NCBI RefSeq assembly: GCF_018449545.1
Contig: NZ_JAAVUR010000008.1
Location: forward strand, 1 to 64,000
DNA length: 64,000 bases
Source of the DNA: Granulicella sp. dw_53
GTDB lineage: Bacteria > Acidobacteriota > Terriglobia > Terriglobales > Acidobacteriaceae
Reading direction: 5' to 3'
A program made the translations under genes and the position numbers. The notes beneath the pieces were generated by a model, which searched no databases, was not told where the DNA came from, and saw nothing but the letters and a program-made list of their open reading frames with translations. Positions 17,758 through 58,490 of this stretch are shown here, in pieces; the stretch's first letter is position 1, and each line of letters opens with the position of its first letter.

Positions 17758-17834
17758 GGCGCCATGGTGTAACTGGTTAACACGCGGCCCTTTCAAGGCT
17801 GAGAGTCCGGGTTCGAGCCCCGGTGGCGCTACCA
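17758..17834 (+). tRNA. tRNA-Glu (TTC); prophage integration site
   Basis: A complete cloverleaf with CCA. The acceptor is GGCGCCA with TGGCGCT (G-U first pair) and the anticodon loop is CTTTCAA, giving TTC. From the anticodon stem onward it is identical to a fragment at 58438, so the prophage entered here and kept the gene intact. Confidence 0.95.
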
Positions 17835-17837
17835 AAA
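17785..17837 (+). other. attL: attL core, 53-bp direct repeat
   Basis: Identical over 53 bases to 58438-58490. It covers the anticodon stem through CCA of tRNA-Glu(TTC) plus three bases. A prophage fills the space between the two copies and a tyrosine integrase lies beside the right copy. Confidence 0.93.
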
Positions 17838-18626: not shown

Positions 18627-18856
18627 TGGCTAACACTCCCAAGGGTTCATCAGAACAGATTTTGTTTAACGTCAAGGATGCGGGTAGGATGCTAGGCGGC
18701 TTGTCACCGCGTAGCATCCGTTACCTGATTGCTAATAATGTCCTAAAGGTAAGGCGGCTTGGGGCGCGGGTCTTTATTCATAAAGATGAACTGGTTCGGT
18801 TCGCCTCCACCGACCATATAGCCAATATTGCTCCTCAGATCCAGGAGGTGGCGTAA
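18626..18856 (+). CDS. Small HTH protein, excisionase-like
   Basis: A 76-aa protein with one helix-turn-helix of the MerR/excisionase (HTH_17) type: NVKDAGRMLGG, SPRSIRYLIANNVLKVRRLG, then FIHKDELVRFA. Proteins like this bind DNA as excisionases or small repressors. It overlaps neighbours on both sides (TAATG). Its nearness to attL supports an Xis role, but a second similar protein exists at 20835. Confidence 0.7.
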   Translation: MANTPKGSSEQILFNVKDAGRMLGGLSPRSIRYLIANNVLKVRRLGARVFIHKDELVRFASTDHIANIAPQIQEVA

Positions 18857-19755
18857 TGGAAGACACCAAAATCAACTGGGCTAGACACACCTTCAATGCT
18901 TGGAAAGGATGCACTCGCGTAGATCACGAGTGCACCTTCTGCTATGCCGAGAACCTCATCGATCAGCGATACGGTGCCAATCTCCTCCCCATTTGGGGCC
19001 AGAATGGTGAACGTCCTAAAACCATCGATGCCAACTGGAAACATCCGTACAGGTGGAACAAAGAGGCTCAGGAAGCTGGTGAGACACGCTTTGTGTTTTG
19101 CGGGAGTCTTATGGACTTCGCAGAGGACAATCCAAAGATCAAACCTGAGTGGCGAGAACAACTGATCGAGATGATTAGGAACACGCCGAATCTGACGTGG
19201 TTGTTGCTCTCCAAGCGTCCTGAGAACTTCCCTAAATACTTACCCGCCAAGCCATTGCCTAACGTTTGGTTGGGCACCAGTGCAGGACACGGTAACGAGA
19301 GCGCATTGGGGCGAATAAAGGCCCTACAGGGCCTTCCTGTCGCCAAGGGTTGTCATCGTTTCATTAGCGCAGAACCTTTGCTGGAAAAGGCATCGGCACC
19401 GGGCAGAATCTTGCCTTTAGTGGCTAAGAATGGAACGTTGGACCTGTCCGGCATTTCGTGGTTGATATGTGGTGGCGAGTCAGGTTCAGCAGCGCGTCCC
19501 TTCGATATCGCAGCCGCATACCGCGTATTCGAACAATGCAGAGCACAGGGCGTAAAGTTCTGGTTCAAGCAGGTTGGCGATTTCACGATGGACAGCGAAA
19601 CGTTCATCGAGACGCATAAGGACATCCACAACCTCTCCTACGTACCCCAGAAATACCGAAAGATGATTGTTCGGGAGCGTCCCGCCGGTGTGAAGGTCAG
19701 GAAGTGTGTCACGAAGATACACTCGAAGGCTAAGAAAGGCGCGGTGGCGGCATGA
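18856..19755 (+). CDS. Phage Gp37/Gp68-like protein (DUF5131)
   Basis: A 299-aa member of the DUF5131 phage family. Near the N-terminus are cysteines 19, 26 and 29 (CTRVDHECTFC), a three-Cys pattern resembling the iron-sulfur site of radical-SAM-like proteins. Family patterns FVFCGSLMDFA, LLLSKRPENFP and WLICGGESG follow. Function is not established for the family. It sits in the middle of the coupled early operon. Confidence 0.82.
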   Translation: MEDTKINWARHTFNAWKGCTRVDHECTFCYAENLIDQRYGANLLPIWGQNGERPKTIDANWKHPYRWNKEAQEAGETRFVFCGSLMDFAEDNPKIKPEWREQLIEMIRNTPNLTWLLLSKRPENFPKYLPAKPLPNVWLGTSAGHGNESALGRIKALQGLPVAKGCHRFISAEPLLEKASAPGRILPLVAKNGTLDLSGISWLICGGESGSAARPFDIAAAYRVFEQCRAQGVKFWFKQVGDFTMDSETFIETHKDIHNLSYVPQKYRKMIVRERPAGVKVRKCVTKIHSKAKKGAVAA

Positions 19756-20450
19756 TTGACACCTTAGCCGATCTCATCACCACTAAACTCGATATGTTCG
19801 TGCAGACTCAGTTCGCTACTGAGGATGTGCTTGCTAAGGAACAGAAGTTGCGTCCGGCGTTGATAAAAGCTGTGCGGAATGACCGAACAGCCTCCTATGA
19901 ATTGGGGCGTTTGCTGAACGAATATCAAAAACTCTTCCCCGGTGGGCTGTCTGGCCTTTCCCACGCACTGTGTATCAGCCGTAGCACGGCGAACAGGGCT
20001 AGGAATCGGTACAGGCGAGCTAATCAATTACCCGAGCAGGTAAGGGAATTGGCCTTGATTCGTGGATTCGACGTCGCTGCACCAGAGAACGCTTATCTCT
20101 TGAAGGCGTTGACTGAGAACGTCTCAGAGGGATTGTCTGGAAAAGAGATTGAGTCCGCCGTAGACGAGAAAATTGCGGCTATGGAAAAGGTCCAACTTCA
20201 GGCAAAGGAAAAGCGTCAAGCAAAAGCTGCTGCATCCCGCTTGGCCAAGAACGAGAATCTTCCCACTGGCGATATCACCAGCGAGAGGGTCGAAGCAATC
20301 TCTAAACCCGTATTCCTGTCTATGCTTGTACCCTTTGTCGATCAGGTGTTGGACATGGGGTTGAGCAAGAAACAGGGACTGGCGGTATTCGCTAAGGCCT
20401 GGGATGACCGACATGGTATGGGGATAGGGGAGCATACCGAAAACACATAA
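19752..20450 (+). CDS. Prophage hypothetical with HTH-like segment
   Basis: A 232-aa soluble protein. Residues near 75-100 (SHALCISRSTANRARNRY) look like a helix-turn-helix, and residues 140-170 form a Lys/Ala/Glu-rich helix. It overlaps the previous gene by ATGA. A DNA-binding regulatory role is plausible but not shown. Confidence 0.55.
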   Translation: MIDTLADLITTKLDMFVQTQFATEDVLAKEQKLRPALIKAVRNDRTASYELGRLLNEYQKLFPGGLSGLSHALCISRSTANRARNRYRRANQLPEQVRELALIRGFDVAAPENAYLLKALTENVSEGLSGKEIESAVDEKIAAMEKVQLQAKEKRQAKAAASRLAKNENLPTGDITSERVEAISKPVFLSMLVPFVDQVLDMGLSKKQGLAVFAKAWDDRHGMGIGEHTENT

Positions 20451-22317: not shown

Positions 22318-23508
22318 ATGAATATTCAATCTCGCGTTCTCGATAGGCTCATCGCTGCACGGCACCTGATTGATAGCTCTGGCCAGGAACTGACGTCATT
22401 CTCAGGGCCTTTGGCGGTGGCGCAAAAGATATTGCTAGGTCATGATGCTGCTGAGCTAGTTCTGTCTGCTTTAAAATCGCATCTGAATCTGAAAACGGAC
22501 CAAAACTTCATGCCAATCGCTAGAGCGGTATGTGCCCAAGCCTTCGAGGATGATAGTCAACTTGGAGCTGCAGTCGATGCATTCGATCACCTCAATGACT
22601 TACGAGTGGCATTCAAGCACCGAGGCAATCTCCCGGATGTATCAACGAACTATCAGTTGTTCTCTGAGGTTGTCGATTTCCTGGATATCCTATGCGATTG
22701 CATCATTGGAAAACCGCTAGTTCAGATCGATCAATTATCAGCCGTCTCCGATGCCTCGGTCAGGGACATCCTTGTTTCTGCTCGAACTTGGATCGGAGAG
22801 GAGAAATATAAAGAGGCTCTTGAAACAGTTTCGCGTGCTCTTTCCGACGCATTTAAAACCTTAAATGTGCCTCCTTATATGAGACCTGGAAAGGTATCTA
22901 CAGAAGACGCTCTTCTTCTTTCGGGTAGGGGAATTGATCCTGCAAGTTTCCTCACAATGCAGAAGTTCTTGCCTCTAACGTACGACGGGGACGAGTTTCA
23001 TTGGAATCTACGGGAAAATGGCCACGAGATGAATTGGACGGAATCAAACGCTAACTTTTGCCTGCAAATGGCCACATCAACTATCCTCCGGCTCCAGAAT
23101 GCACAAGAAATTCCAACCCCGAGCGACTTTTATACATGGTTCCACGACGTCGTTGAAGTTACAGTTGCCACACCGACTGTCCTTTTATACAAGGGAGGAT
23201 TTGGAATGGCTCGTCTTGACAGTCACTTCAACTTGTTCCGCAAGGGAAGCCGAATATCCGGAAGGGTAAAAGGTTCATGGCGTAAGGAGCTTGATTTACA
23301 GGAGATGAGCAGTTCCGATTTAGAGCATGTGCCGTATATCGTTCTCGAATCTCCAAAGCATGATCTGATCCCGCAAGTACCCTCCGGACTTAGCGCCTTA
23401 TTTGAGCGTCACTTTCTTTTATTCGTTGCGGACGAGGTGACAATAAGTTATGAAAGCAATGGTATGCGGGAGGCGATTCTCAGGCGTCGCATCGAGCAGG
23501 GCGAATAG
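22318..23508 (+). CDS. HEPN-like domain protein, candidate effector
   Basis: A 396-aa protein. The first ~150 residues fit a HEPN-type helical bundle: ILLGHDAAELVLSALKSHL (39-57) and LRVAFKH (95-101), which gives an Rx4H pattern (R96, H101) like the RNase motif of HEPN toxins. The remaining ~230 residues are unfamiliar. HEPN proteins often cut RNA in toxin or abortive-infection systems. The domain call is by eye and the activity is inference. Confidence 0.5.
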   Translation: MNIQSRVLDRLIAARHLIDSSGQELTSFSGPLAVAQKILLGHDAAELVLSALKSHLNLKTDQNFMPIARAVCAQAFEDDSQLGAAVDAFDHLNDLRVAFKHRGNLPDVSTNYQLFSEVVDFLDILCDCIIGKPLVQIDQLSAVSDASVRDILVSARTWIGEEKYKEALETVSRALSDAFKTLNVPPYMRPGKVSTEDALLLSGRGIDPASFLTMQKFLPLTYDGDEFHWNLRENGHEMNWTESNANFCLQMATSTILRLQNAQEIPTPSDFYTWFHDVVEVTVATPTVLLYKGGFGMARLDSHFNLFRKGSRISGRVKGSWRKELDLQEMSSSDLEHVPYIVLESPKHDLIPQVPSGLSALFERHFLLFVADEVTISYESNGMREAILRRRIEQGE

Positions 23509-26306: not shown

Positions 26307-26852
26307 ATGGCAGGCATGACAATGCTTCCGCCTGATGCCAGAGTCCTCATCTATAAACGAACCCATAAGGGCGACCCAGACCAAAGGGGTCAGTTTGGGA
26401 TCAATTGCTGTATGGGATCTTTCAGAAGTCGAGACTATTATGCCGTGATCGGAATTGGCGGTACCAGCGAAAGGCCAGTAGCGGACGGTATCGACCGGAA
26501 GCTCAATTGGATCGGCGTCGGAGCGAAAAGACACCCGATTAATGACGGAACACAGCACCTAGTCACATTCGACAGATTTGTCTTATACGAAGACGCAGGT
26601 CGGGATTTCGAAAAGATTGCACCGATTATAGCGCGTCAGTTTTATGAAGGCGATGCGCGGCAGCTTGTCTACGACAAATCCCGGAAGGATAGAACGTTTA
26701 GTAGGGAAGAGACCGCAGAGATAAACTTCATCCTGAGTCTGGCCGATAACGCGAAGCCGTCCAACCGGAAATCGCTGCCAATGACAATCGATTGCAAATC
26801 TGAACACTGTGGCTGTTCAACTCCGAAGGAACGCAAGAAGGCGGACTGTTAG
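26307..26852 (+). CDS. Prophage hypothetical protein
   Basis: About 181 aa; the start is uncertain (26307, 26316 or 26322). Ordered beta segments are seen (RVLIYKRTHKGDP, GQFGINCCMG, DYYAVIGIGG, NWIGVGAK), and the C-terminus is Cys-rich (CKSEHCGCS). The pattern faintly recalls nucleotide-modification-associated phage proteins, but I cannot support that. The product is convergent with the DUF4062 gene. Confidence 0.55.
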   Translation: MAGMTMLPPDARVLIYKRTHKGDPDQRGQFGINCCMGSFRSRDYYAVIGIGGTSERPVADGIDRKLNWIGVGAKRHPINDGTQHLVTFDRFVLYEDAGRDFEKIAPIIARQFYEGDARQLVYDKSRKDRTFSREETAEINFILSLADNAKPSNRKSLPMTIDCKSEHCGCSTPKERKKADC

Positions 26853-26858
26853 GCAGTA

Positions 26859-28217
26859 TTAATATCCTGTTACGGGATCAAGAGAATCGACATACTTGTA
26901 CCCGGCATTTGTAACCTTGCTGATGGGACCCGACGAATGAGCTACGAATCCCAAACGTTTAAGCTCTTCTAAGGCAGCGGTCCATAGGGCTACTGTACGT
27001 GGAGAATTGTCGCCTTTGCCGAATTGTTGGCCACCCGCAGACATAGTATTGAGCCCGATTGAATTGCGAACGAGAATATCCCCGCCCTTGCTCGCGGCCT
27101 GTTTTAAGATTGTTTCTGCAGCTTCACTCAAAAGCGGTTGACTACTAGTTGACGGACTGGGTATTGCCGACTGAGTAATCTCAAGACCCGCGTAGCGGGC
27201 TTCATTGAGTTCCATAGCGAGATGGCGTCTAAACTGTCGTCTGAAGTCGTCGGTGTCACGAAACGCTGTATACCAACTCTTCAGCCTGCATTCATCTCGA
27301 TAGCTAACAAGAGCGGCATACTGCTCTCGGTCGTAGTCACGGGGTAATGGAGCCTCAGAAAAATATAATTTCACGGACTTTTGTCGATCAGCATGACGAG
27401 TAATTTCCTCCACCGTGCCACTTTGGAAATCTGGTGTTTGAGTCCCCAATCGCATACCGAAAATTCCTACTAAGATGTCGGCTCTATCTAAGATTTGTTT
27501 GTTGACCAGCGCCTGAGGATGAGCACCATATTGCGGATTGGTGTTGGTTTCCCATTTATCTGGCAAAAGAACGATATTGCGAGAGGCGGAATGCAATGCA
27601 TTCCAGTCATTTATTTCTTCAGTTGCTGCTCGTCGTTCTTCTTGAACATCTCCAGGAGAAGCAATCATCACTCTTAGAACGGTAGCGTTAAAACCCATTT
27701 TCTTGCCTCCGGAATTCTCTATTTGTGGCAGTCTGGAACTCTTGTCCGGTGACTGACGACTTTTGAGTTTTGCTAAGCTCACTTTGCTTCTTGCTTGCAA
27801 TAGCGCACGACCACCAACTCTGTCCATCTCTTGTTTAAGTTGATCGGTGATAGCCGGTATTTGGGCGGCCCCCAGGGTCTGAGGTAGTTGAGGTGTGTAC
27901 TTTGCTTTCGAAATCAACTCCAACTTTGCGATGATTTCACTCTCTATCTCATCTGTGATCGGAATATTCAGTTCTTTGCATGTGTCCAGATATATCGCGG
28001 TGTGAACCGCGATTTTCTCCTCCAGCCACTTCGTATAGGTTCCATGCACAAGTTTGATTCCGGGACCAGAGTTCGTGAGTCCCCGGGCAGATGCTTGTGA
28101 TGCCGCCTCTCTGCGCGCCGCTTCACGTTCGACTATTAGCTTCTCGTCAGCGGCGAGCAACGAGATTTGTATGTGCCTCTGAACATCGTTTGCAAATGGC
28201 ATTCGCCAATCGTACAC
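26859..28217 (-). CDS. DUF4062 plus winged-helix protein, candidate defence gene
   Basis: A 452-aa protein with three parts. Residues 1-173 are mostly helical and unfamiliar. Residues ~174-340 match a DUF4062-type domain (VMIASPGDVQEERRAATEEI, VNKQILDRADILVGIFGMRLG, GTVEEI), related to TIR/SLOG-type conflict domains. Residues ~362-445 match the C-terminal winged helix often attached to it (LLSEAAETIL, WTAALEELKRLGFV). A second start at 27698 has its own GGAGG. It runs against the phage genes and diverges from a methyltransferase, which suggests an accessory immunity gene. Confidence 0.7.
   Translation of the reverse strand: MYDWRMPFANDVQRHIQISLLAADEKLIVEREAARREAASQASARGLTNSGPGIKLVHGTYTKWLEEKIAVHTAIYLDTCKELNIPITDEIESEIIAKLELISKAKYTPQLPQTLGAAQIPAITDQLKQEMDRVGGRALLQARSKVSLAKLKSRQSPDKSSRLPQIENSGGKKMGFNATVLRVMIASPGDVQEERRAATEEINDWNALHSASRNIVLLPDKWETNTNPQYGAHPQALVNKQILDRADILVGIFGMRLGTQTPDFQSGTVEEITRHADRQKSVKLYFSEAPLPRDYDREQYAALVSYRDECRLKSWYTAFRDTDDFRRQFRRHLAMELNEARYAGLEITQSAIPSPSTSSQPLLSEAAETILKQAASKGGDILVRNSIGLNTMSAGGQQFGKGDNSPRTVALWTAALEELKRLGFVAHSSGPISKVTNAGYKYVDSLDPVTGY
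27696..27710 (-). promoter_or_regulatory. Internal ribosome binding site and start in the DUF4062 gene
   Basis: On the minus strand GGAGG lies 7 bases before an in-frame ATG (27698) that begins MGFNATVLRVMIASPGD. Stand-alone family members start with very similar residues, so a 279-aa short product is likely in addition to, or instead of, the 452-aa form. Confidence 0.6.
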
Positions 28218-28260
28218 GCCGACCTAAAACCAATCCATCAATATCTATAGGGCTGAACAA

Positions 28261-29058
28261 TTGTCCCAATTGCCAATCAATACGATCACCCAGGGCGACT
28301 GTCTTGAGGTCATGAAGCACATCCCCGATGGGACAGTGGATTGCATCATCTGTGATTTGCCTTATGGAACTACGCAGAATAGATGGGATGCAGTTATTCC
28401 AATGGAGCAACTCTGGTCTGAGTGGAAGCGAATATGCAAACCCGGCGCACCGATCATTCTGTTTACCCAGCAGCCGTTTACGACTACGGTTGCGGCCAGC
28501 AATCTGAAACATCTCAAGACAGAATGGATATGGGAAAAGCCCCAAGGAACAGGTTTCCTGAATGCTAAACTTTACCCGCTGAAGTCACACGAGAACATTC
28601 TCGTATTCTGTGACCGCAAGCCTCCTTATTACCCTCAGATGGAAACCGGCTCTAAGCCATACGTCACAGGTAGAGGCAAGAAATCATCCAATTACGGCCA
28701 GTTTGAGAACACTGTCACAGTCAACACGGACGGTTCACGCTATCCGAAAACAGTCCTCAGATACGCAGCGGAGAAGGGTCTGCATCCGACTCAGAAGCCT
28801 ATTGCATTGATCGAGTACTTGATTAGGACCTACACGGTGGAGGGGTCAACTATCCTGGATTGCGCTTGTGGCAGTGGGACTACCATCGTTGCCTGTGACA
28901 ACACGGGACGAATTGGAATCGGCATAGAAAGTGATGCGACCTATTTTGAAATAGCTGTAAATCGTATCAATGAAAATCGAGACCGTTTAAAACTACCCAA
29001 GATAGTACCTTCTCCAAAGCTTGACCCACACGGCAAAGATTTATTGGATGCCGCATAG
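28261..29058 (+). CDS. DNA methyltransferase, N4/N6 class
   Basis: A 265-aa adenine or cytosine-N4 methyltransferase. The catalytic motif is DLPY (32-35), then HPTQKP (175-180) and the AdoMet motif LDCACGSGTT (199-208), the beta-class order. It starts at TTG 28261 after AGGG. No restriction enzyme is adjacent, so it looks solitary and may protect phage DNA or mark it. It diverges from the DUF4062 gene by a 43-base gap. Confidence 0.88.
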   Translation: MSQLPINTITQGDCLEVMKHIPDGTVDCIICDLPYGTTQNRWDAVIPMEQLWSEWKRICKPGAPIILFTQQPFTTTVAASNLKHLKTEWIWEKPQGTGFLNAKLYPLKSHENILVFCDRKPPYYPQMETGSKPYVTGRGKKSSNYGQFENTVTVNTDGSRYPKTVLRYAAEKGLHPTQKPIALIEYLIRTYTVEGSTILDCACGSGTTIVACDNTGRIGIGIESDATYFEIAVNRINENRDRLKLPKIVPSPKLDPHGKDLLDAA

Positions 29059-29289: not shown

Positions 29290-29393
29290 TCGCCAATGTT
29301 ACACCCGAGCTAATCGGCATATCGCTGCTCCGTAAGGGCGTGTTTGGGATGACGAGAGCAGGGAAATGTGTCTCTCACAAACGATATAAACCA

Positions 29394-29771
29394 ATGCCTA
29401 AAGCTAGCCTTAGACCATGCCGAAAGGCAGGATGTTCCGCGTTAATAGAATCGGGCTATTGCGAGAAGCACAAGACTGTAGGCAGTGCTCAAGACAGGCT
29501 ATATCGTGGTAACGCAGCCAGCAGAGGGTATGACAGAGCATGGAGCAAGGTACGCAATGAAGCATTGAAGAGGGATTGCTATCTCTGCCAGCACTGTTTA
29601 AAATCGGGCCAAGTCACGTCAGCCTCTGATGTAGATCACATAGTCCCCATATCAATAGCACCAGATAAAAGACTAGACATAACCAACCTCCAGTCACTAT
29701 GCCGTCCATGCCATAGAGCGAAGACCATCAGTGATCAGAAGCAATACGCAACGCAGAGTGTGTCACGGTGA
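29394..29771 (+). CDS. HNH endonuclease (packaging-associated type)
   Basis: About 125 aa from ATG 29394. The core is a zinc-cluster HNH: CYLCQHCLKSG, DVDHIVPI, LDITNLQSLCRPCHRAKT. In many HK97-like phages this nuclease sits just before terminase and helps cos cleavage. Here one minus-strand gene intervenes before the terminase. Confidence 0.85.
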   Translation: MPKASLRPCRKAGCSALIESGYCEKHKTVGSAQDRLYRGNAASRGYDRAWSKVRNEALKRDCYLCQHCLKSGQVTSASDVDHIVPISIAPDKRLDITNLQSLCRPCHRAKTISDQKQYATQSVSR

Positions 29772-29945: not shown

Positions 29946-30380
29946 TCAAATCTTTAAATCCTTGCCGAAGTAGAGAACGAGAAGTGCGGTCGTGACAGCA
30001 AGCCAAACCTTAGCAGAGACATCCTGAGTGTATTTAAACAGTTCCCAATCTGATACTTCAGTAGTGCCTGGATAAAACGGTCGACGCCTACCTTGCCTGT
30101 AAATGCCCTGGAACTCGAACCAGAAGAAAAGGGGCGGAAGGACGACCCAACTTACCAGAACGGCTACTTCCACTTGCCGATACCATGGCCATTCTTTCAC
30201 TGGGATTTCCTTAAGCGGGCAGTTGTTTCCCCAATAGATGGCACCAACGCCCAATACAAACGAAAGAATCAGTAAGACTCCGGAAATCCAGAGCAGACAG
30301 TTGTAGAACCTATCGGGTGTCAGTTTCAGAATCGTTTTTGGGGATGCTTCATGAATCGACTGTTTATTCATTTCATTCAT
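29946..30380 (-). CDS. Membrane protein, possible moron
   Basis: A 144-aa protein with three hydrophobic helices (CLLWISGVLLILSFVLGVGA, VAVLVSWVVLPPLFFWF, VWLAVTTALLVLYF). It lies on the minus strand between HNH and terminase, breaking an otherwise plus-strand packaging module. It may be a prophage-expressed membrane protein such as a superinfection-exclusion factor; this is inference. Confidence 0.6.
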   Translation of the reverse strand: MNEMNKQSIHEASPKTILKLTPDRFYNCLLWISGVLLILSFVLGVGAIYWGNNCPLKEIPVKEWPWYRQVEVAVLVSWVVLPPLFFWFEFQGIYRQGRRRPFYPGTTEVSDWELFKYTQDVSAKVWLAVTTALLVLYFGKDLKI

Positions 30381-30980: not shown

Positions 30981-32654
30981 ATGCCAGCAGATTACGCAGC
31001 CAAAGCAAATGAGTACGCAAGGGCTGTAGTTGCGGGCGAGATTATTGCATGTCGTTGGATCAAGTTGGCGTGTCAACGCCATTTGGATGATCTAACCAAG
31101 GTCTCTGATCCCGATTACCCCTACAAGTTCAGCTCAAAGAAAGCGGCCAAGATATGTAGATTTGCCGAGATGCTGCCCCTCGGTGGTCGTTGGGGAGGAA
31201 AGGGAATCACCCTTACTCTTCAGCCGTGGCAATGTTTCATCCTGGCCTGTACGTTTGGCTGGCTCCACAAGAAAGACAATCTCAGACGATTCCGAACCGT
31301 CTACCTGTACGTCCCTCGTAAGAATGGAAAGTCATTCCTGAGTGCCGTTGTTGGCCTCTACATGCTCCTGCTGGACGGTGAGCAACAGGCCGAGATTTAT
31401 ACCGGTGTCACGACCGAAGAACAGGCTCAGTACGTCTTCAGACCGGCTCAGCAGATCGTTAGAAAGACACCCGGCCTCAAGGCAATGGGTGTTCAGTGTC
31501 TCGCTAATGCAATAGTCATACCCGTAACTGAATCCAGGATGGCTACCACCATTGGTCAGCCTCCAGATGGTTCATCTCCTTCCTGCGCGTTGCTAGATGA
31601 ATCCCACGAATGGTCAAACGACCATTTGATGTCCACCATGCAAACGGGCATGGGAGCAAGATTACAGCCTCTCACTTGGGTGACTACCACCGCTGGATAC
31701 AACACAGCCGGTCCCGCCAAGCTGATGCAGGATGACCTTCAGGACGTTCTGGAAGGCATCAAGCAGGATGATGAGCTATTCGGTCTGATCTATGGCCTCG
31801 ATGTTGGCGACGATTGGAAAGATGAATTGGCGATACACAAGGCCAATCCCAATCTTGGTATCAGCGTAGGACTCGATTACCTCAAGTCACAGCAACTCAA
31901 GGCGATTCAAAGCCCACGGCTACAGACCCAGGTAAAGACAAAGCATTTCAATATCTGGTGTGCATCTGCCGTCGGTTGGATGGACATGGATAGGTGGCAA
32001 CGCTGTTCAGACACATCCCTGAACATTGAAGACTTCGCGGGTGAAACCTGTTGGGCAGGTCTGGACCTCGCATCCAAACTCGACCTCACTGCCTACATCC
32101 TCATTTTCATGAGGGTGATCGAAGGCAAGCAACACTTCTACCTATTCCCACGTTTTTACCTTCCATCAGCTCGAATCGATGATCCAGCCAACGGTCACTA
32201 CAAGCAGTGGTCAGAACTGGGATATCTCGAAGCGACCCCGGGCGAAGTTAACACCCATGCAGAGTTGCGTGAGCAGATCTCGGCAGATGCTAAGCAATTT
32301 GACATGCGTGAAGTCGGCCACGATCCCCACGGTGCTAGTCAGCTTGTCGCCTCGCTCATGGAAGAGGGTTTGACTTGCATTGAGTTGCAGCAAACCTGGA
32401 AATACCAATCCGAACCCATGAAGACGCTCGAAGCGTTGGTCATGGATGGCCGGTTACACCACGACGGTAACCCCGTCATGACGTGGAACATTGCCAACAC
32501 CATCGTTCACCATCTCAGAAATGAAGTCATCACCCCGGATAAGGCCAGTGCTGAAAAGAAAATTGATGGCACTGTTGCCACAATCATGGCTCTTGGCCGC
32601 GCCACCATTACAGCACCAGCAGAAGCATGGTTTGAACCATTTGTCCTGCGATAA
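30981..32654 (+). CDS. terL: Terminase large subunit
   Basis: A 557-aa packaging motor. The ATPase motifs are VPRKNGKS (111-118) and ALLDES (203-208). The nuclease part follows, with GLDLASKLDLTAY and later acidic residues. The family is the HK97/lambdoid Terminase_1 type. It drives DNA into the prohead and cuts it. Confidence 0.93.
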   Translation: MPADYAAKANEYARAVVAGEIIACRWIKLACQRHLDDLTKVSDPDYPYKFSSKKAAKICRFAEMLPLGGRWGGKGITLTLQPWQCFILACTFGWLHKKDNLRRFRTVYLYVPRKNGKSFLSAVVGLYMLLLDGEQQAEIYTGVTTEEQAQYVFRPAQQIVRKTPGLKAMGVQCLANAIVIPVTESRMATTIGQPPDGSSPSCALLDESHEWSNDHLMSTMQTGMGARLQPLTWVTTTAGYNTAGPAKLMQDDLQDVLEGIKQDDELFGLIYGLDVGDDWKDELAIHKANPNLGISVGLDYLKSQQLKAIQSPRLQTQVKTKHFNIWCASAVGWMDMDRWQRCSDTSLNIEDFAGETCWAGLDLASKLDLTAYILIFMRVIEGKQHFYLFPRFYLPSARIDDPANGHYKQWSELGYLEATPGEVNTHAELREQISADAKQFDMREVGHDPHGASQLVASLMEEGLTCIELQQTWKYQSEPMKTLEALVMDGRLHHDGNPVMTWNIANTIVHHLRNEVITPDKASAEKKIDGTVATIMALGRATITAPAEAWFEPFVLR

Positions 32655-32663
32655 GGATTTCCC

Positions 32664-34388
32664 TTGGGTCTAAAATCCGCTATTCAGAAATTCGCATCAG
32701 AGATGCGGACTTCCGAGATTACCAAACTGGAGCTGCGTGGCAGCGGTGATCCTCTCAATAATCCAGCTATTCCTCTGTCTACCGCAGGGTTCCTGTCATG
32801 GGCTTTCAGTGGCGAACCGACGGCAGCAGGGGAGCAGATCAACGTACACACATCTTTACAGCAGATGACGGTGTACGCCTGCATAAAAGTTCTGTCGGAA
32901 TCTGTTGCGTCCCTGCCCGTCAAGGTTTACGAAGTGCTTGATGGTAAGGGGAAGAAAGAGACAACGAATCATACCCTTGCTGAACTCCTTGGCGTAGCGC
33001 CGAACGATGAGATGACGGCTTTCAGTTTCTGGGAAGCAATGGTCGGGGCATTAGCTCTTACCGGCAATTGCTATGCAGAAATTCAACGTGACGCTGTCGG
33101 ACGACCTGTTGCTCTGTGGCCTCTAAATCCTCTCCTTACCGAACCAAAGCGCGATAGCGCAGGCAATCTCGTCTATGAAACTACAGACGGAATGCAACAG
33201 GGTAAGTTCCGAGTCATAGCGTCTGAAAACGTTCTACATGTACCTCTGTTTTCCTTCGACGGGTTGAAGGGCATCAATCCAATTCACCTCGCACGTCAGG
33301 GAATCGGCCTCGCTAGAGCCGCTGAGAAGTTCGGTGGCCGTTGGTTTGGCAATGGTGCCCGTCCCGGTGGTCTGCTCAGCAATACAGGCGGTTCTGTCCC
33401 AACTCCCGCTCAGATGACCTCCATGAGAGAGTCCTGGGAGCGGTCTCAAGGGGGAGAGAACCAAGGGACTGTTGCAGTTCTGCCAGGCGGTTGGACCTAC
33501 ACCCCTATGGGTATCAATCCAGATGACTCTCAGTTTCTAGAGACCCGCCAGTTTCAGCGTACTGAGATTGCTGCTTTATTTCGAGTCCCTCCTCACATGG
33601 TTGGTGACAATTCGAAGCTGTCCAACAGCAACGCGGAGCAGTCGGCTCTGATGTTTGTCACTGACACTCTACGTCCTTATCTATCCAGATTAGAGGCTGA
33701 GATTGCCCGCAAGCTATTACCTCGTCAGGGACGAAACTCTGGACGGTATCTTGTCCAATTCGATGTAACCGAACGTCTACGCGGTGACTTTTCTACCACC
33801 ATGACTGGCTACGCCACCGGCAAGCAGTGGGGGTTCCTTAGCACGAATGATGTACGCGAATCGTTGGGCCAGAACCCAATCGGGCCAGAGGGTGACATTT
33901 ATTGGTCACCTGTGAACATGCAGAACTCCGCTCGTCTGCTCGATACCGAATCCACCCTAGACCAGACTATCGGCGGTCCTACGCCACTCCCAGACGCTGT
34001 GCCAACCACGGATGAACGTTCAATGCTTGAACGCTATTCGTCTGCATACATCACGATCTATAGAGATGCCTTCGGACGGCTATTGAAACGTGATAAGCGC
34101 GATTTGAGCACCATTACAGCCATATTTACACCAGTTCTGACCTCTATTGCAGAGGCGGCAGCAGGTTATGCAAACGGCTCTGATGCGGCCAATTCCTCTA
34201 AGAATATTGAATCTGTTTGTCGCTCTATGGCGAAACGTGCCGAAACTTACACAGAGGCAAATATAGACGCCCTCGCCCAGCATGAATTCATCAAGGCTGT
34301 CCGTTCTATACATATCCTCACCCATCGTGACATAGCAGGTGCGAAGGCAGAGGCCAGCGTTACCATCCCGGAGACAGTAAATGAGTAA
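32664..34388 (+). CDS. Portal protein (HK97 family)
   Basis: A 574-aa protein starting at TTG 32664 with AAGGAT upstream. Portal family patterns include VYACIKVLSESVASLPVKVY, ALTGNCYAEIQRD and FRVPPHMVGD. It forms the dodecameric DNA entry gate. The C-terminal 100 residues are extra compared with the HK97 portal. Confidence 0.92.
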   Translation: MGLKSAIQKFASEMRTSEITKLELRGSGDPLNNPAIPLSTAGFLSWAFSGEPTAAGEQINVHTSLQQMTVYACIKVLSESVASLPVKVYEVLDGKGKKETTNHTLAELLGVAPNDEMTAFSFWEAMVGALALTGNCYAEIQRDAVGRPVALWPLNPLLTEPKRDSAGNLVYETTDGMQQGKFRVIASENVLHVPLFSFDGLKGINPIHLARQGIGLARAAEKFGGRWFGNGARPGGLLSNTGGSVPTPAQMTSMRESWERSQGGENQGTVAVLPGGWTYTPMGINPDDSQFLETRQFQRTEIAALFRVPPHMVGDNSKLSNSNAEQSALMFVTDTLRPYLSRLEAEIARKLLPRQGRNSGRYLVQFDVTERLRGDFSTTMTGYATGKQWGFLSTNDVRESLGQNPIGPEGDIYWSPVNMQNSARLLDTESTLDQTIGGPTPLPDAVPTTDERSMLERYSSAYITIYRDAFGRLLKRDKRDLSTITAIFTPVLTSIAEAAAGYANGSDAANSSKNIESVCRSMAKRAETYTEANIDALAQHEFIKAVRSIHILTHRDIAGAKAEASVTIPETVNE

Positions 34389-35103
34389 TCGTGAAATACG
34401 TCAGATCAAGGGTCTTGAACTGAGGGTGGCAACCAACGCCAATGGTCAGCGTACCCTGTCCGGTTACTCTGCCGTGTTTAGTTCTCTCTCTGTGGATATG
34501 GGTGGTTGGTTTGAACTGATCTCGCCTTCTGCCTTCACCCGCACTTTACAGGAGAACCCTGATGTTCTCTGTCTCTACTCTCATGACACGTCCTTGGTCT
34601 TAGGCCGCACTAAATCCAGCACGCTGTCCTTATCGATCGATCAGACTGGATTACGATTCGAGTGCATCCTGCCGGACACCTCAACGGCCAATGACCTCAT
34701 TGTGTCCATCGAACGCGGAGACGTTGACGGCTGTAGTTTCGGATTTGTCTGTCAGTCTGATGTTTGGTCTGAAGATAGCGAGGATCGTATCGTTCGTACC
34801 TTGCTAGACGTTGATCTCTATGAAGTCACGATCACCGCCGCACCGGCATATCAAGCAACGTCGGTTGCATTACGTTCTGCCCCAACGGAAATCAGATCAC
34901 GTATTACCGAGAGTCGAAGCCCAGGTTGTGTTTGTCCCTGTCCAGGATGCGTAGCAGGCGACTGCCTCGATTGTTCTGACGCAGATTGCGACGAAGATAA
35001 TTGCGAACATCGTGACGACAGTGACGATATTGAAATCGACTCTAGATCCCTTCTCTGGCATTTAGAGATGCGTCTCAAGCTCGCATTAGCCCGCCTCAAA
35101 TAA
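34381..35103 (+). CDS. HK97-type prohead protease
   Basis: A 240-aa serine protease of the HK97 family. It shows TLSGYSAVFSSLS, FELISPSAFTRTL and YSHDTSLVLGRT, the family His being in YSHD. It overlaps the portal by 8 bases. The acidic, Cys-rich C-terminal tail (CVCPCPGCVAGDCLDC) is unusual and may bind a metal. Confidence 0.85.
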   Translation: MSNREIRQIKGLELRVATNANGQRTLSGYSAVFSSLSVDMGGWFELISPSAFTRTLQENPDVLCLYSHDTSLVLGRTKSSTLSLSIDQTGLRFECILPDTSTANDLIVSIERGDVDGCSFGFVCQSDVWSEDSEDRIVRTLLDVDLYEVTITAAPAYQATSVALRSAPTEIRSRITESRSPGCVCPCPGCVAGDCLDCSDADCDEDNCEHRDDSDDIEIDSRSLLWHLEMRLKLALARLK

Positions 35104-35238
35104 TCCCACCCATAAGTTTGCAAGGCCACAACGATCAGCCCGCCTGATTGCGTTAAATCGTGCCGTTTTTCCTTGCCGCAATGAAGCCCCGGCCAGCCGC
35201 TGGTGATGCTGTCATGCACCGCAGTACACAGGAACCCA

Positions 35239-36438
35239 ATGAATTTGAAAGATATGCAGGAACAGCGCACTAAGCTGATTAGTGACGCGCAGAAGATCGT
35301 GCTTCAAGATAGCGTAACCACTGAACAGCGTGCCGAGGCTGAGGCCATGCTCGTCGATGTTGACAAGCTAGAAGCTGATATCAACCTCGTCCAGAAGTTA
35401 GAAAAGTTAGAAGCAGAGACTCGCGCAACGACTCGTCCATCCCGTCCCACCCCCGGTGCGGTTGCCTCGGATAGGGAAGAGCGTGATGGTTTAGCGGCTA
35501 AGGCGTTTGAAAAATACATCCGTTATGGAGCCAGTGAACTTACCCACGAGGATCGTTCCGCACTACGTGAAAAGCGCGATCTAACCACCACCAATGCCGC
35601 TTATACCATCCCTCAGCAGTTCCTTGGAACTCTGATCGATGCACAAAAGATGGTTGGAAATACGGTGTCCATCGTTGGCAAGAAGGTCACTAACAACAAT
35701 GGCGCACCAATCAAGGTGAGCTTCTCCAACGATGTTGGTAACACCCTTACCACAATGACCGGTGAAAACACCGTGGTCACCGAGTCCGATCCTTCCTTCT
35801 CTGGCCTGATCATGCAGACCGACACCCTAGCCACAATGGTAAAGGTATCTATACAGGAACTTGAGGACAGCTACTTTGACCTCAACTCTTGGCTACGTGA
35901 CAAGTTTGCTCTCCGTTACTACAGAGGTCTGGAAACTCTCATTACTGCGGGTAACGGTTCAAACATCGCCTCAATCGTTGCCGGTGCGACTCTTGGGGCA
36001 ACTACGGTCGCTGCCAATGGGCCAACTTTTGACGACTTTACCGCTATCTACGGGGCACTCGACCCAGCATACGAGAACTCCGCATCCTGGGTAATGTCTA
36101 GCACCACTCGTGCCTACATCATGGGTCTCAAGGACACGTTGAATCGTCCTCTTTTTATCCCTAACCCATCCAGCGGTGTACTGGACACCATTCTTGGCCG
36201 TCCAGTTGTCCTGAATCAGGCGCTTTCCGTTGCAACTACGGCGGCTGCAACTGGCATCCTCTATGGCGATTTCAGCCAGGGTTATCTGCTTCGCACTGAC
36301 GGTGATCTTGCTATTCGCCGTCTGGACGAGAGATTTGCCGATGCCCTAGAAGTCGGATTTCTTGCTTATGCGCGTGTTGGCGGAGTAAGCACCGACGCAG
36401 GAACCCATCCCATCCTTAAACTCGTAACCCACGCCTAA
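35239..36438 (+). CDS. Major capsid protein (HK97 fold)
   Basis: A 399-aa protein from ATG 35239 with AGGAA 5 bases upstream. An N-terminal coiled-coil delta region (QEQRTKLISDAQK) precedes the capsid core (AYTIPQQFLGTLIDAQK, GLETLITAGNGSN). The N-terminal part is likely removed by the protease. Confidence 0.92.
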   Translation: MNLKDMQEQRTKLISDAQKIVLQDSVTTEQRAEAEAMLVDVDKLEADINLVQKLEKLEAETRATTRPSRPTPGAVASDREERDGLAAKAFEKYIRYGASELTHEDRSALREKRDLTTTNAAYTIPQQFLGTLIDAQKMVGNTVSIVGKKVTNNNGAPIKVSFSNDVGNTLTTMTGENTVVTESDPSFSGLIMQTDTLATMVKVSIQELEDSYFDLNSWLRDKFALRYYRGLETLITAGNGSNIASIVAGATLGATTVAANGPTFDDFTAIYGALDPAYENSASWVMSSTTRAYIMGLKDTLNRPLFIPNPSSGVLDTILGRPVVLNQALSVATTAAATGILYGDFSQGYLLRTDGDLAIRRLDERFADALEVGFLAYARVGGVSTDAGTHPILKLVTHA

Positions 36439-55849: not shown

Positions 55850-56128
55850 ATGAATGACATTCAAATAATCGTTGACTGGATGGATAGCCTAATCCAGGTG
55901 CTGGTGGATTACCCAAAGGATGTTTTTGTGAAGGCACTACCCACTTCAGAGGGTTTCACTTTGTCTGTCATAGTCAATCCGGTTGACACCGAAAAGCTGA
56001 TCGGTAGAGAAGGCAGTAACGCTGAGGCTCTTCAACAACTTCTAGTGGAAGTCGGCATGGTGAAAAACCTGAAGCTCAGCTTGGATATTGAGGGGCAACA
56101 GGCTCCTCAGGAGAATGCAGTCCGATAG
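55850..56128 (+). CDS. KH-domain RNA-binding protein (KhpA-like)
   Basis: A 92-aa protein with a type-II KH motif: TLSVIVNPVDTEKLIGREGS with the GxxG loop GREG (52-55), then AEALQQLLVEVG and KLSLDIEG. It resembles KhpA, a small RNA-binding protein. ATG 55850 fits the domain start. Not expected in a phage. Confidence 0.72.
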   Translation: MNDIQIIVDWMDSLIQVLVDYPKDVFVKALPTSEGFTLSVIVNPVDTEKLIGREGSNAEALQQLLVEVGMVKNLKLSLDIEGQQAPQENAVR

Positions 56129-56438: not shown

Positions 56439-56628
56439 GCCGGAGAGTATAGAGCAGACTCGTAAAAGCATCGTATTGATTGTGCCTATAAGCAGTCTTG
56501 CGCCGATTCAAGCCGGATATTTTCTCCCGAATCGGAACGGAGGTCGTATCGCTCGGTCACTACGGCAAGTCCTTATGGCCGTGAGTGCAAAGAAAGACCT
56601 CAATCTGACTTTGGATATTGAGGGGTAA
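56437..56628 (+). CDS. Second, divergent KH-like protein
   Basis: A 63-aa protein. Its end (RQVLMAVSAKKDLNLTLDIEG) is close to the end of the first KH protein, and NRNG takes the place of the GxxG loop. The N-terminal strand is shorter, so it may be a degenerate paralogue. Confidence 0.5.
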   Translation: MPESIEQTRKSIVLIVPISSLAPIQAGYFLPNRNGGRIARSLRQVLMAVSAKKDLNLTLDIEG

Positions 56629-57088: not shown

Positions 57089-58258
57089 CTATGCAGCTCT
57101 GGATCGGTTTATCTTCGCCATTGCTTCATGCATTTGCTCGTTATCGACATGCGCATATCGCTGAGTAGTGGCGATGGAGCCATGACCACACAGAATCTGT
57201 ACGATTTTTAGATTGACTCCTGCTGCAACCAGACGGCTGGCAAAGGAATGCCTCAAATCGTGCCATCTGAATTGCTTTATACCCGCCTCATTGCGTGCAT
57301 CTGTCCACCATTCCCTATTAACTGCAATGTTGAATACTCGGCCATCAGAAGACATCCTCTGGCGTTCGCCATCTTGGAGACGGGTAATCTCCTCCTGAAT
57401 GGTACGAAGCTCCTGGAGGGCTTCGTACACGTCATCAATCATGGGTATGGTTTGAGGTTTGCCCGTCTTGTTCATGGCTGGAGGGATATGCAGCTCCCGA
57501 TTGTCAAAGTCAATATGTTCGGACCATTTTAGGTTGTATTGATTGCTTTTACGTAGTCCAGTACCAAGGGCTAGAGTCAACTCATGAGGGTGGCAGCGAA
57601 GGAACAGCTTGCGGAGCCTGTGGTGTTCTGGGCATTCAGCAATCCACTTGTCTAGGACCTTCCTAATCGCCTCTTCCTCTTCTGGCCGAAGTTGGCGAGG
57701 ATGGTCAGGTGCCTCTACATGGAACTGTTGCTGATCCCGTACGGGATTGTGATCTACCTTCCCCGAATCCATGGCAACGCGGTAGACGCTGGAGAGAACA
57801 GAACGATACCTGTTCAGGGTAGCGGGTTTCTTATTCAGGCTCAGTAGCCAATTCCTTATTTCATAGCCTTTGATCGATGCAGCAGAACGGCCATTGAAGC
57901 CCTCCAGAATCGCCTTTACGCGTTGTTTAGGACTGGACTGGTCTCTCGGTGGTTTGGGGCACGAAGGGCTGCTTATAAAGGCTAAATAATCCTCACATAG
58001 CTGGTTGATTGTGATCCCAGATTGAACACCATCTATTTGAGAGAGGGTTCGCGTCTGTTCCTTGGCTGACTTGGCGACAGTTCCAGGGACGACACCCCGT
58101 TTGATGAGTTTCGTTTTGGCAAGTTCGGCCTCTGCCTCAGATTGAGAGCCTATTCGTCTACGGACGTTCTTTCCATCAAACCTGTACCGGATATACCAAA
58201 TACCGCTGCCTGGAACCTTCTCGAATACGCCGGAAACTGCTTTAGGTTTACGCGCCAT
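57089..58258 (-). CDS. int: Tyrosine-family integrase
   Basis: A 389-aa phage integrase. N-terminal arm-binding and SAM-like domains precede the catalytic part with R236 (GTGLRKSN), lysine near 264-267, HxxR at 333-336 (HDLRH), H359 (CGHG) and nucleophile Y368 (TQRYAH). All catalytic residues are present, so it should be active. It is transcribed away from attR, 180 bases inside it, and its upstream region carries the 19-bp repeat. Confidence 0.95.
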   Translation of the reverse strand: MARKPKAVSGVFEKVPGSGIWYIRYRFDGKNVRRRIGSQSEAEAELAKTKLIKRGVVPGTVAKSAKEQTRTLSQIDGVQSGITINQLCEDYLAFISSPSCPKPPRDQSSPKQRVKAILEGFNGRSAASIKGYEIRNWLLSLNKKPATLNRYRSVLSSVYRVAMDSGKVDHNPVRDQQQFHVEAPDHPRQLRPEEEEAIRKVLDKWIAECPEHHRLRKLFLRCHPHELTLALGTGLRKSNQYNLKWSEHIDFDNRELHIPPAMNKTGKPQTIPMIDDVYEALQELRTIQEEITRLQDGERQRMSSDGRVFNIAVNREWWTDARNEAGIKQFRWHDLRHSFASRLVAAGVNLKIVQILCGHGSIATTQRYAHVDNEQMHEAMAKINRSRAA

Positions 58259-58437: not shown

Positions 58438-58490
58438 CGGCCCTTTCAAGGCTGAGAGTCCGGGTTCGAGCCCCGGTGGCGCTACCAAAA
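58438..58490 (+). other. attR: attR core, 3' tRNA-Glu fragment
   Basis: A 53-bp copy of the tRNA 3' part, without the 5' half, so not a working tRNA. It marks the right end of the prophage. Confidence 0.93.

Follow-up and report, generated by a model that had tools for sequence, protein, structure and literature searches.

What does a gene that faces against the direction of its own prophage encode, and from which start codon is it made? The gene lies in the window, the whole stretch of 64,000 nucleotides analyzed here. Its long ORF holds a GGAGG sequence 7 nt before an in-frame ATG at position 27698, giving 279 instead of 452 aa. Both elements are present in the sequence as the sequence-only reading of this DNA had described them; that reading took them for an internal ribosome site and proposed a two-product prophage immunity gene. 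The features of the gene are as follows.

26859-28217, minus strand: long ORF, 452 aa from GTG
26859..27698, minus strand: DUF4062 and winged-helix protein, proposed main product, 279 aa, start ATG 27698
27706..27710, minus strand: GGAGG Shine-Dalgarno (SD) sequence, 7 nt 5′ of ATG 27698
27699..28217, minus strand: 173 codons upstream of that ATG and in frame with it, with predicted helices, candidate N-terminal domain of the 452-aa form
27204..27683, minus strand: DUF4062 (TIR-like) domain spanning about residues 6-165 of the 279-aa protein, based on Pfam, AlphaFold2 (AF2), and VIA-align
27405..27410, minus strand: Glu97-Glu98 of SGTVEEI, candidate catalytic glutamate, near-invariant in 13 rows
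26877..27131, minus strand: winged helix at the C terminus (putative sensor, AUX), about residues 190-274, predicted by AF2

The surrounding element is a prophage of about 40.7 kb in a member of the Acidobacteriota. Its prophage nature, also claimed earlier, is borne out by an att repeat, an integrase gene, and terminase, portal, protease, and capsid genes, the latter four following each other in order at 30981-36438.

17785..17837: attL, 3′ part of tRNA-Glu(ttc), 53-bp exact repeat
28261..29058, plus strand: divergent N6/N4 DNA methyltransferase
29340..29771, plus strand: HNH endonuclease, upstream of the terminase genes
30981..32654, plus strand: terminase large subunit
32664..34388, plus strand: portal protein of the same prophage (PF04860, phrog_12)
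57089..58258, minus strand: tyrosine integrase, just inside attR
58438..58490: attR, second copy of the 53-bp repeat

The DUF4062 gene is present as a single copy in the host genome. As had been noticed, it opposes the phage direction and diverges from the methyltransferase gene. The portal gene of the prophage starts 4966 bp from ATG 27698. Three other observations concern the same element. Just inside attL, a DUF5131 gene (PF07505; PADLOC PDC-M30B/M41B, E 6e-36) is followed by a gene for 232 aa (18856-20450, plus strand), and the two are a candidate second defense pair of the prophage. A 144-aa ORF (29946-30380, minus strand) likewise opposes the phage genes and lies immediately before the gene of the small terminase; it matches no family above cut-off and is read as membrane-spanning. 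Near the integrase end there are two 37-nt direct repeats (56062-56098 and 56592-56628, 81%).

A terminase match was found in five of 62 same-genus genomes besides the window's own, at 70% in genome G031 and at 32 to 46% in the others. The G031 prophage is collinear with that of the window over the HNH, small and large terminase, portal, protease, and capsid genes, and the 18 kb examined contain no counterpart of the DUF4062 or methyltransferase genes. It carries a TIR gene 2.3 kb upstream of HNH (L058:7324-8247; PF13676; PADLOC TIR-TM, E 3.2e-57), and the G031 genome has a DUF4062 gene elsewhere (L004). Because the TIR gene sits near the place that the DUF4062 gene occupies in the window, this prophage family, as judged from two prophages, appears to carry exchangeable TIR-type cargo.

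The start codon was compared in 25 distinct relatives, which were set on the window sequence, ungapped, from the IASPxD motif. The input comprised 27 ids (the window, the 25 relatives, and L028, whose broken signature left it without a row); L031, which is the same Larkinella locus as L023, was left out. An ATG at the exact codon of ATG 27698 occurs in 20 of the 25, and a near-aligned ATG in L026 (four codons before) and L047 (one codon after). In 13 of the 25, a count that excludes L030, which begins at a contig edge, the open upstream frame contains no ATG, GTG, or TTG, and these proteins are therefore not longer at the N terminus. Three relatives, L003, L005, and L045, have 192, 179, and 168 open upstream codons, respectively, and lack a start codon at the aligned site, with an ATG in L005 five codons before it. 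L044 combines the aligned ATG with 123 open codons upstream, which means that an open upstream frame alone proves little. Homologues that always carry the N-terminal part, the finding that the earlier reading had said would speak against it, are nearly the opposite of what this comparison gave; nor do long and short forms recur as a conserved arrangement, the long upstream frame without an aligned ATG being confined to the three relatives just named.

The closest relative by sequence, L017 (identical to L002; 55-56% identity), has its ATG at the aligned codon. It comes from Edaphobacter lichenicola X5P2 (Tunturiibacter lichenicola in the NCBI taxonomy, Acidobacteriota), whose genome, G002, is listed as belonging to the same genus as that of the window. 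An Escherichia coli homologue, whose chromosomal neighborhood includes relaxase, TraD, and RepL genes, is also 279 aa long, 37% identical, and uses the same start codon. Plasmid matches, too, fall mainly on the region that follows the internal ATG: among the best 20 of 189 plasmid records, they begin at residues 143-179 of the long form; two of the 189 were examined for their start. The upstream frames of six relatives that start at, or one codon from, the aligned codon (L006, L017, L044, L046, L047, and L048) have no clear likeness to the window N terminus, with 42 to 430 of 500 shuffles scoring as well.

The ribosome-binding site itself is unusual in this DNA. In 34 other window ORFs, hand-picked and counted without their ends, a GGAGG 5-9 nt 5′ of the ATG was found at one of 164 in-frame internal ATGs. 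That single case lies in a 396-aa ORF (22318-23508, plus strand) with no Pfam, PHROG, or PADLOC match. Using the consensus anti-SD octamer, the computed pairing of ATG 27698 is −8.8 kcal/mol, stronger than at 29 of 31 window ORF starts (uncurated starts from the ORF caller) and exceeded at the other two; among 400 random ATGs, 1.5% pair as strongly. The possible starts of the long form pair less well (GTG 28217, −3.4; ATG 28202, −2.4; TTG 28160, −5.1 kcal/mol). Folding the RNA around either start showed nothing remarkable. Within 26700-28700, a scan for sigma-70-type promoters found none upstream of the gene on its own strand, and the numbers of promoters and terminators predicted were close to those in shuffled sequences. 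Because the ATG is conserved, its SD sequence strong, and the long-form starts weak, the 279-aa form is probably the standard protein. Based on these comparisons, of which conservation at the exact codon is the strongest argument for a real start site, GGAGG-ATG 27698 is most likely the ordinary start of the gene and not that of a second, special product, and the label of an internal ribosome site is better replaced accordingly.

This leaves the 173 codons upstream. A first-order Markov model of the same stretch stayed open for 173 codons in 12 of 20,000 trials, which makes a chance open frame unlikely. The prophage-like codon score of these codons (0.008; shuffles −0.144, SD 0.052) is the best of the six frames, but 23 of 24 prophage ORFs score higher. 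For the 279-aa part, the score is 0.09 (shuffles −0.077, SD 0.041). AlphaFold2 predicts helices at residues 6-44, 51-82, 89-105, and 119-150 with low to middling confidence. Searches with the N-terminal 173 residues gave nothing in Pfam even at E ≤ 10, only the own genome among 396 genomes of the phylum at E ≤ 1e-3, and no match in plasmids or phages at E ≤ 1. Next to 15 homologues, no upstream gene resembles the N terminus (best E 0.82).

In L003 and L005, two same-genus relatives, DUF4062 is preceded by a long N-terminal extension that we read as helical. The window N terminus and that of L003 match with a BLASTP E value of 0.008 in a single comparison, and 43 of 2000 and 22 of 1000 shuffles score as well. 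For L033 the count is 45 of 2000, and hhalign of the window N terminus against the L003/L033 pair gives an E value of 0.0077 at a probability of 5%. No likeness was seen to the N termini of L005 (427 of 2000 shuffles as good) or L045 (283 of 1000), and hhalign of the L003/L033 pair against the L005 N terminus gives an E value of 0.21. On these alignments, homology of the window N terminus to the same-genus extensions is at best suggestive.

Searching with the L003 N terminus gave matches in four of 299 genomes of the class: G054 (its own), G014, G106 (L033), and G671 (L035). The last (E 5.8e-4) was dropped, as it reads as a repeat protein. The G014 match is a decayed DUF4062 gene of the L003 type with several in-frame stops (G014:C2:1619472-1620455; L007, L009, and L034). 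L033 (1180-1989, minus strand) carries the L003-type region at 46% identity with a different C-terminal part and without DUF4062, so the region may be a mobile module. Two viral contigs, L037 and L038, were discarded as N-terminal relatives because their matches lie on the opposite strand of a long phage ORF, taken for a structural gene, and matches of the profile A2 HMM in G054 and G011 are circular because both rows sit in A2.

Could the gene nevertheless make two products, with the helical N terminus of a 452-aa form tuning the activity of the 279-aa form as a brake, an extra sensor, or a localizer? The codon use and openness of the upstream frame, its four predicted helices, the extensions of L003 and L005 (179 to 192 open codons before DUF4062), and the weak similarity to L003 point that way, and internal in-frame translation is reported for Cas11b (PMC11899642). 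Against this stand the weak SD pairing of the long-form starts, the restriction of the N-terminal part to its own genome among the 396 of the phylum, its absence from plasmids and phages at E ≤ 1, the low hhalign probability, the shuffles for L005, and a codon score below nearly all prophage ORFs; in L044, the open codons before the aligned start show no likeness to the window N terminus (374 of 500 shuffles as good). Taken together, we consider this reading rather unlikely. That the long form is the only product, with GGAGG-ATG a coincidence inside a fused gene of the kind that L003 and L005 suggest, is highly improbable: 3 of the 25 relatives (L003, L005, and L045) have 168 to 192 open upstream codons and no aligned start codon, but L017 and 19 others have the aligned ATG, and SD pairing at ATG 27698 is strong. 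We regard the 173 codons as probably a helical region that was added or fused, its gene boundary lost while the original start was kept. Because they score weakly as coding and two same-genus extensions exist, a 452-aa form is possible, at most as a minor product.

The 279-aa protein has the two domains that had been recognized earlier. Pfam matches DUF4062 (PF13271) at residues 9-99 with 29.4 bits (cut-off, 24.7); the E. coli homologue, with 23.5 bits, falls just under the cut-off. The AF2 model (pLDDT 80.5) predicts a TIR-like α/β domain followed by a winged helix. Within residues 6-169, VIA-align matched DNPH1 (Z 12.8, rmsd 2.9, 130 aligned), a chain of the RPS4/RRS1 TIR heterodimer (Z 11.3), NAD+-bound SARM1 (10.5), AbTir (10.4), and SPARTA (10.1). 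The best Foldseek hits include RAS and lumazine synthase, Rossmann-like folds with E values similar to those of TIR proteins, which means that the fold match alone is not TIR-specific. PDB sequence hits to de novo TIM barrels (E 0.0045, 25 residues) were judged spurious. Glu97 and Glu98 are near-invariant in 13 rows; L027 lacks the EE pair. Deoxyribosyltransferases have a GTxxE motif, and by analogy with it Glu98 is favored as the catalytic residue. PADLOC PDC-S60 matches the protein with an E value of 7e-31 over a stretch of about 172 residues that holds DUF4062. The match covers only positions 4-181 of the 906-position model and not its full length, and the window protein, unlike PDC-S60, ends in a winged helix. 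No paper on PDC-S60 was found by name, a kind of search that misses things.

A profile built from nine winged-helix rows matched proteins in 8 of 250 genomes of the family, the window's own included. The other seven matches are five DUF4062-type proteins (L044-L048; L047 and L048 above the Pfam cut-off, L044, L045, and L046 below it), a SEFIR/TIR_2 protein (L049), and L050, which reads as an unrelated HemW-type protein and was rejected as spurious. A further SEFIR/TIR_2 protein, L010, matches the winged helix at residues 368-445 (E 2.6e-4) and PADLOC bSEFIR with an E value of 2.4e-69. L010 and L049 thus share the C-terminal winged helix of the window protein, with a SEFIR/TIR_2 effector in place of DUF4062. 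Judged from these profile matches, this suggests that the winged helix is an exchangeable sensor. Our literature search found no paper joining a winged helix to SEFIR/TIR defense proteins, and the link may still be published.

Relatives of the DUF4062 gene occur in three viral contigs (L029, L030, and L031); none was found in 50,697 phage records. The gene in L030 lies beside an integrase gene, that in L029 is 2.5 kb away from a large ORF encoding an M23-peptidase domain, and that in L031 directly follows the gene of an XRE repressor. Defense genes near relatives are AbiTii (L017) and CAP12-TIR/STING (L031). At L031:771-2820, a nucleotidyltransferase gene and a CAP12-TIR/prokaryotic STING gene are found besides DUF4062.

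A preprint by Osinski et al. (May 2026; PMC13174449) describes DUF4062 as a TIR-like NADase. In its Swarozyc protein KpSwz, a C-terminal HTH/winged AUX domain binds portal protein, the Bas14 portal activates the protein, and an NADase activity that depends on E97 aborts phage infection (PMC13174449). Like Swarozyc as described there, the window gene is a single gene in a mobile/defense context and encodes an N-terminal DUF4062 TIR-like domain, a conserved glutamate, and a predicted C-terminal winged helix as a putative AUX domain (PMC13174449). DUF4062, a predicted TIR-like fold, and a conserved glutamate pair, by which Swarozyc is recognized, were all found in the window protein; Glu97/Glu98 were set beside E97 of KpSwz by description. 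Similarly, the winged helix was aligned with that of the E. coli homologue, and its likeness to the KpSwz AUX is one of described fold only; with KpSwz compared by description, its hairpin anchor W238/Y239 was not located in the window protein. As far as that account describes Swarozyc, the window gene differs in lying in an Acidobacteriota prophage, about 5 kb from the phage's own portal gene, with 173 in-frame upstream codons.

We consider it likely that the prophage cargo is a Swarozyc-type defense protein, made mainly from ATG 27698, that would act as a portal-sensing NADase and cause abortive infection. The ORF, the conserved start, the DUF4062 match, the predicted fold and winged helix, the conserved glutamates, the prophage location, the relatives in three viral contigs, and the winged helix in common with SEFIR proteins were all computed here. 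NADase activity, the portal trigger, and abortive infection would follow by analogy with KpSwz. For the earlier claim of a prophage immunity gene, this means that a role in defense is supported and that immunity itself is carried over from Swarozyc (PMC13174449). By this analogy, the 279-aa protein would wait as an inactive oligomer with its TIR-like NADase held off (transferred from the account in PMC13174449). Once another phage assembles portals inside the lysogen, the winged helix would capture a phage structural protein, probably the portal, the protein would cluster on portals, and its TIR-like domains would hydrolyze NAD+. Loss of NAD+ would abort the infection and so protect neighboring lysogens.

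A different role, as a regulator or lysogeny-maintenance factor whose winged helix binds, for instance, DNA, appears quite improbable to us. The winged-helix fold itself and the position of the L031 gene directly after a repressor gene would fit it, but SGTVEEI is conserved, SEFIR/TIR_2 proteins, one of them matching bSEFIR, bear this winged helix too, and the AUX of KpSwz is winged and binds portal (PMC13174449).

If the window protein is a portal-sensing killer, its position 5 kb from its own portal gene implies a need to spare its own phage. We expect that the own portal does not trigger the protein or that the gene is silent during the phage's own lytic growth. Sparing could come about through a non-matching portal, through silence in lytic growth (the gene runs counter to the phage genes), or through an inhibitor, for which the long form would be one candidate. 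BstA is a comparable case of prophage-encoded abortive infection with self-immunity (PMC8585504), and like it the window gene would be a prophage-borne defense gene that needs to spare its own phage. BstA takes a different route: according to its abstract, the protein moves to where phage DNA replicates, and a DNA element, aba, confers self-immunity (PMC8585504). There is a slim chance that a prophage Swarozyc gained a helical domain and kept its original start, yielding a 279-aa NADase along with a 452-aa long form. If so, the long form would join the TIR assemblies as a built-in brake, so that the phage's own portals could be made without killing the factory cell.

The gene puts a likely portal-sensing NADase into the genome of a phage whose own portal gene lies about 5 kb away. 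The question of how phages can carry a weapon against a part that tailed phages build becomes directly testable. The winged-helix sensor common to DUF4062 and SEFIR proteins, in turn, suggests a portable detector of phage structures.
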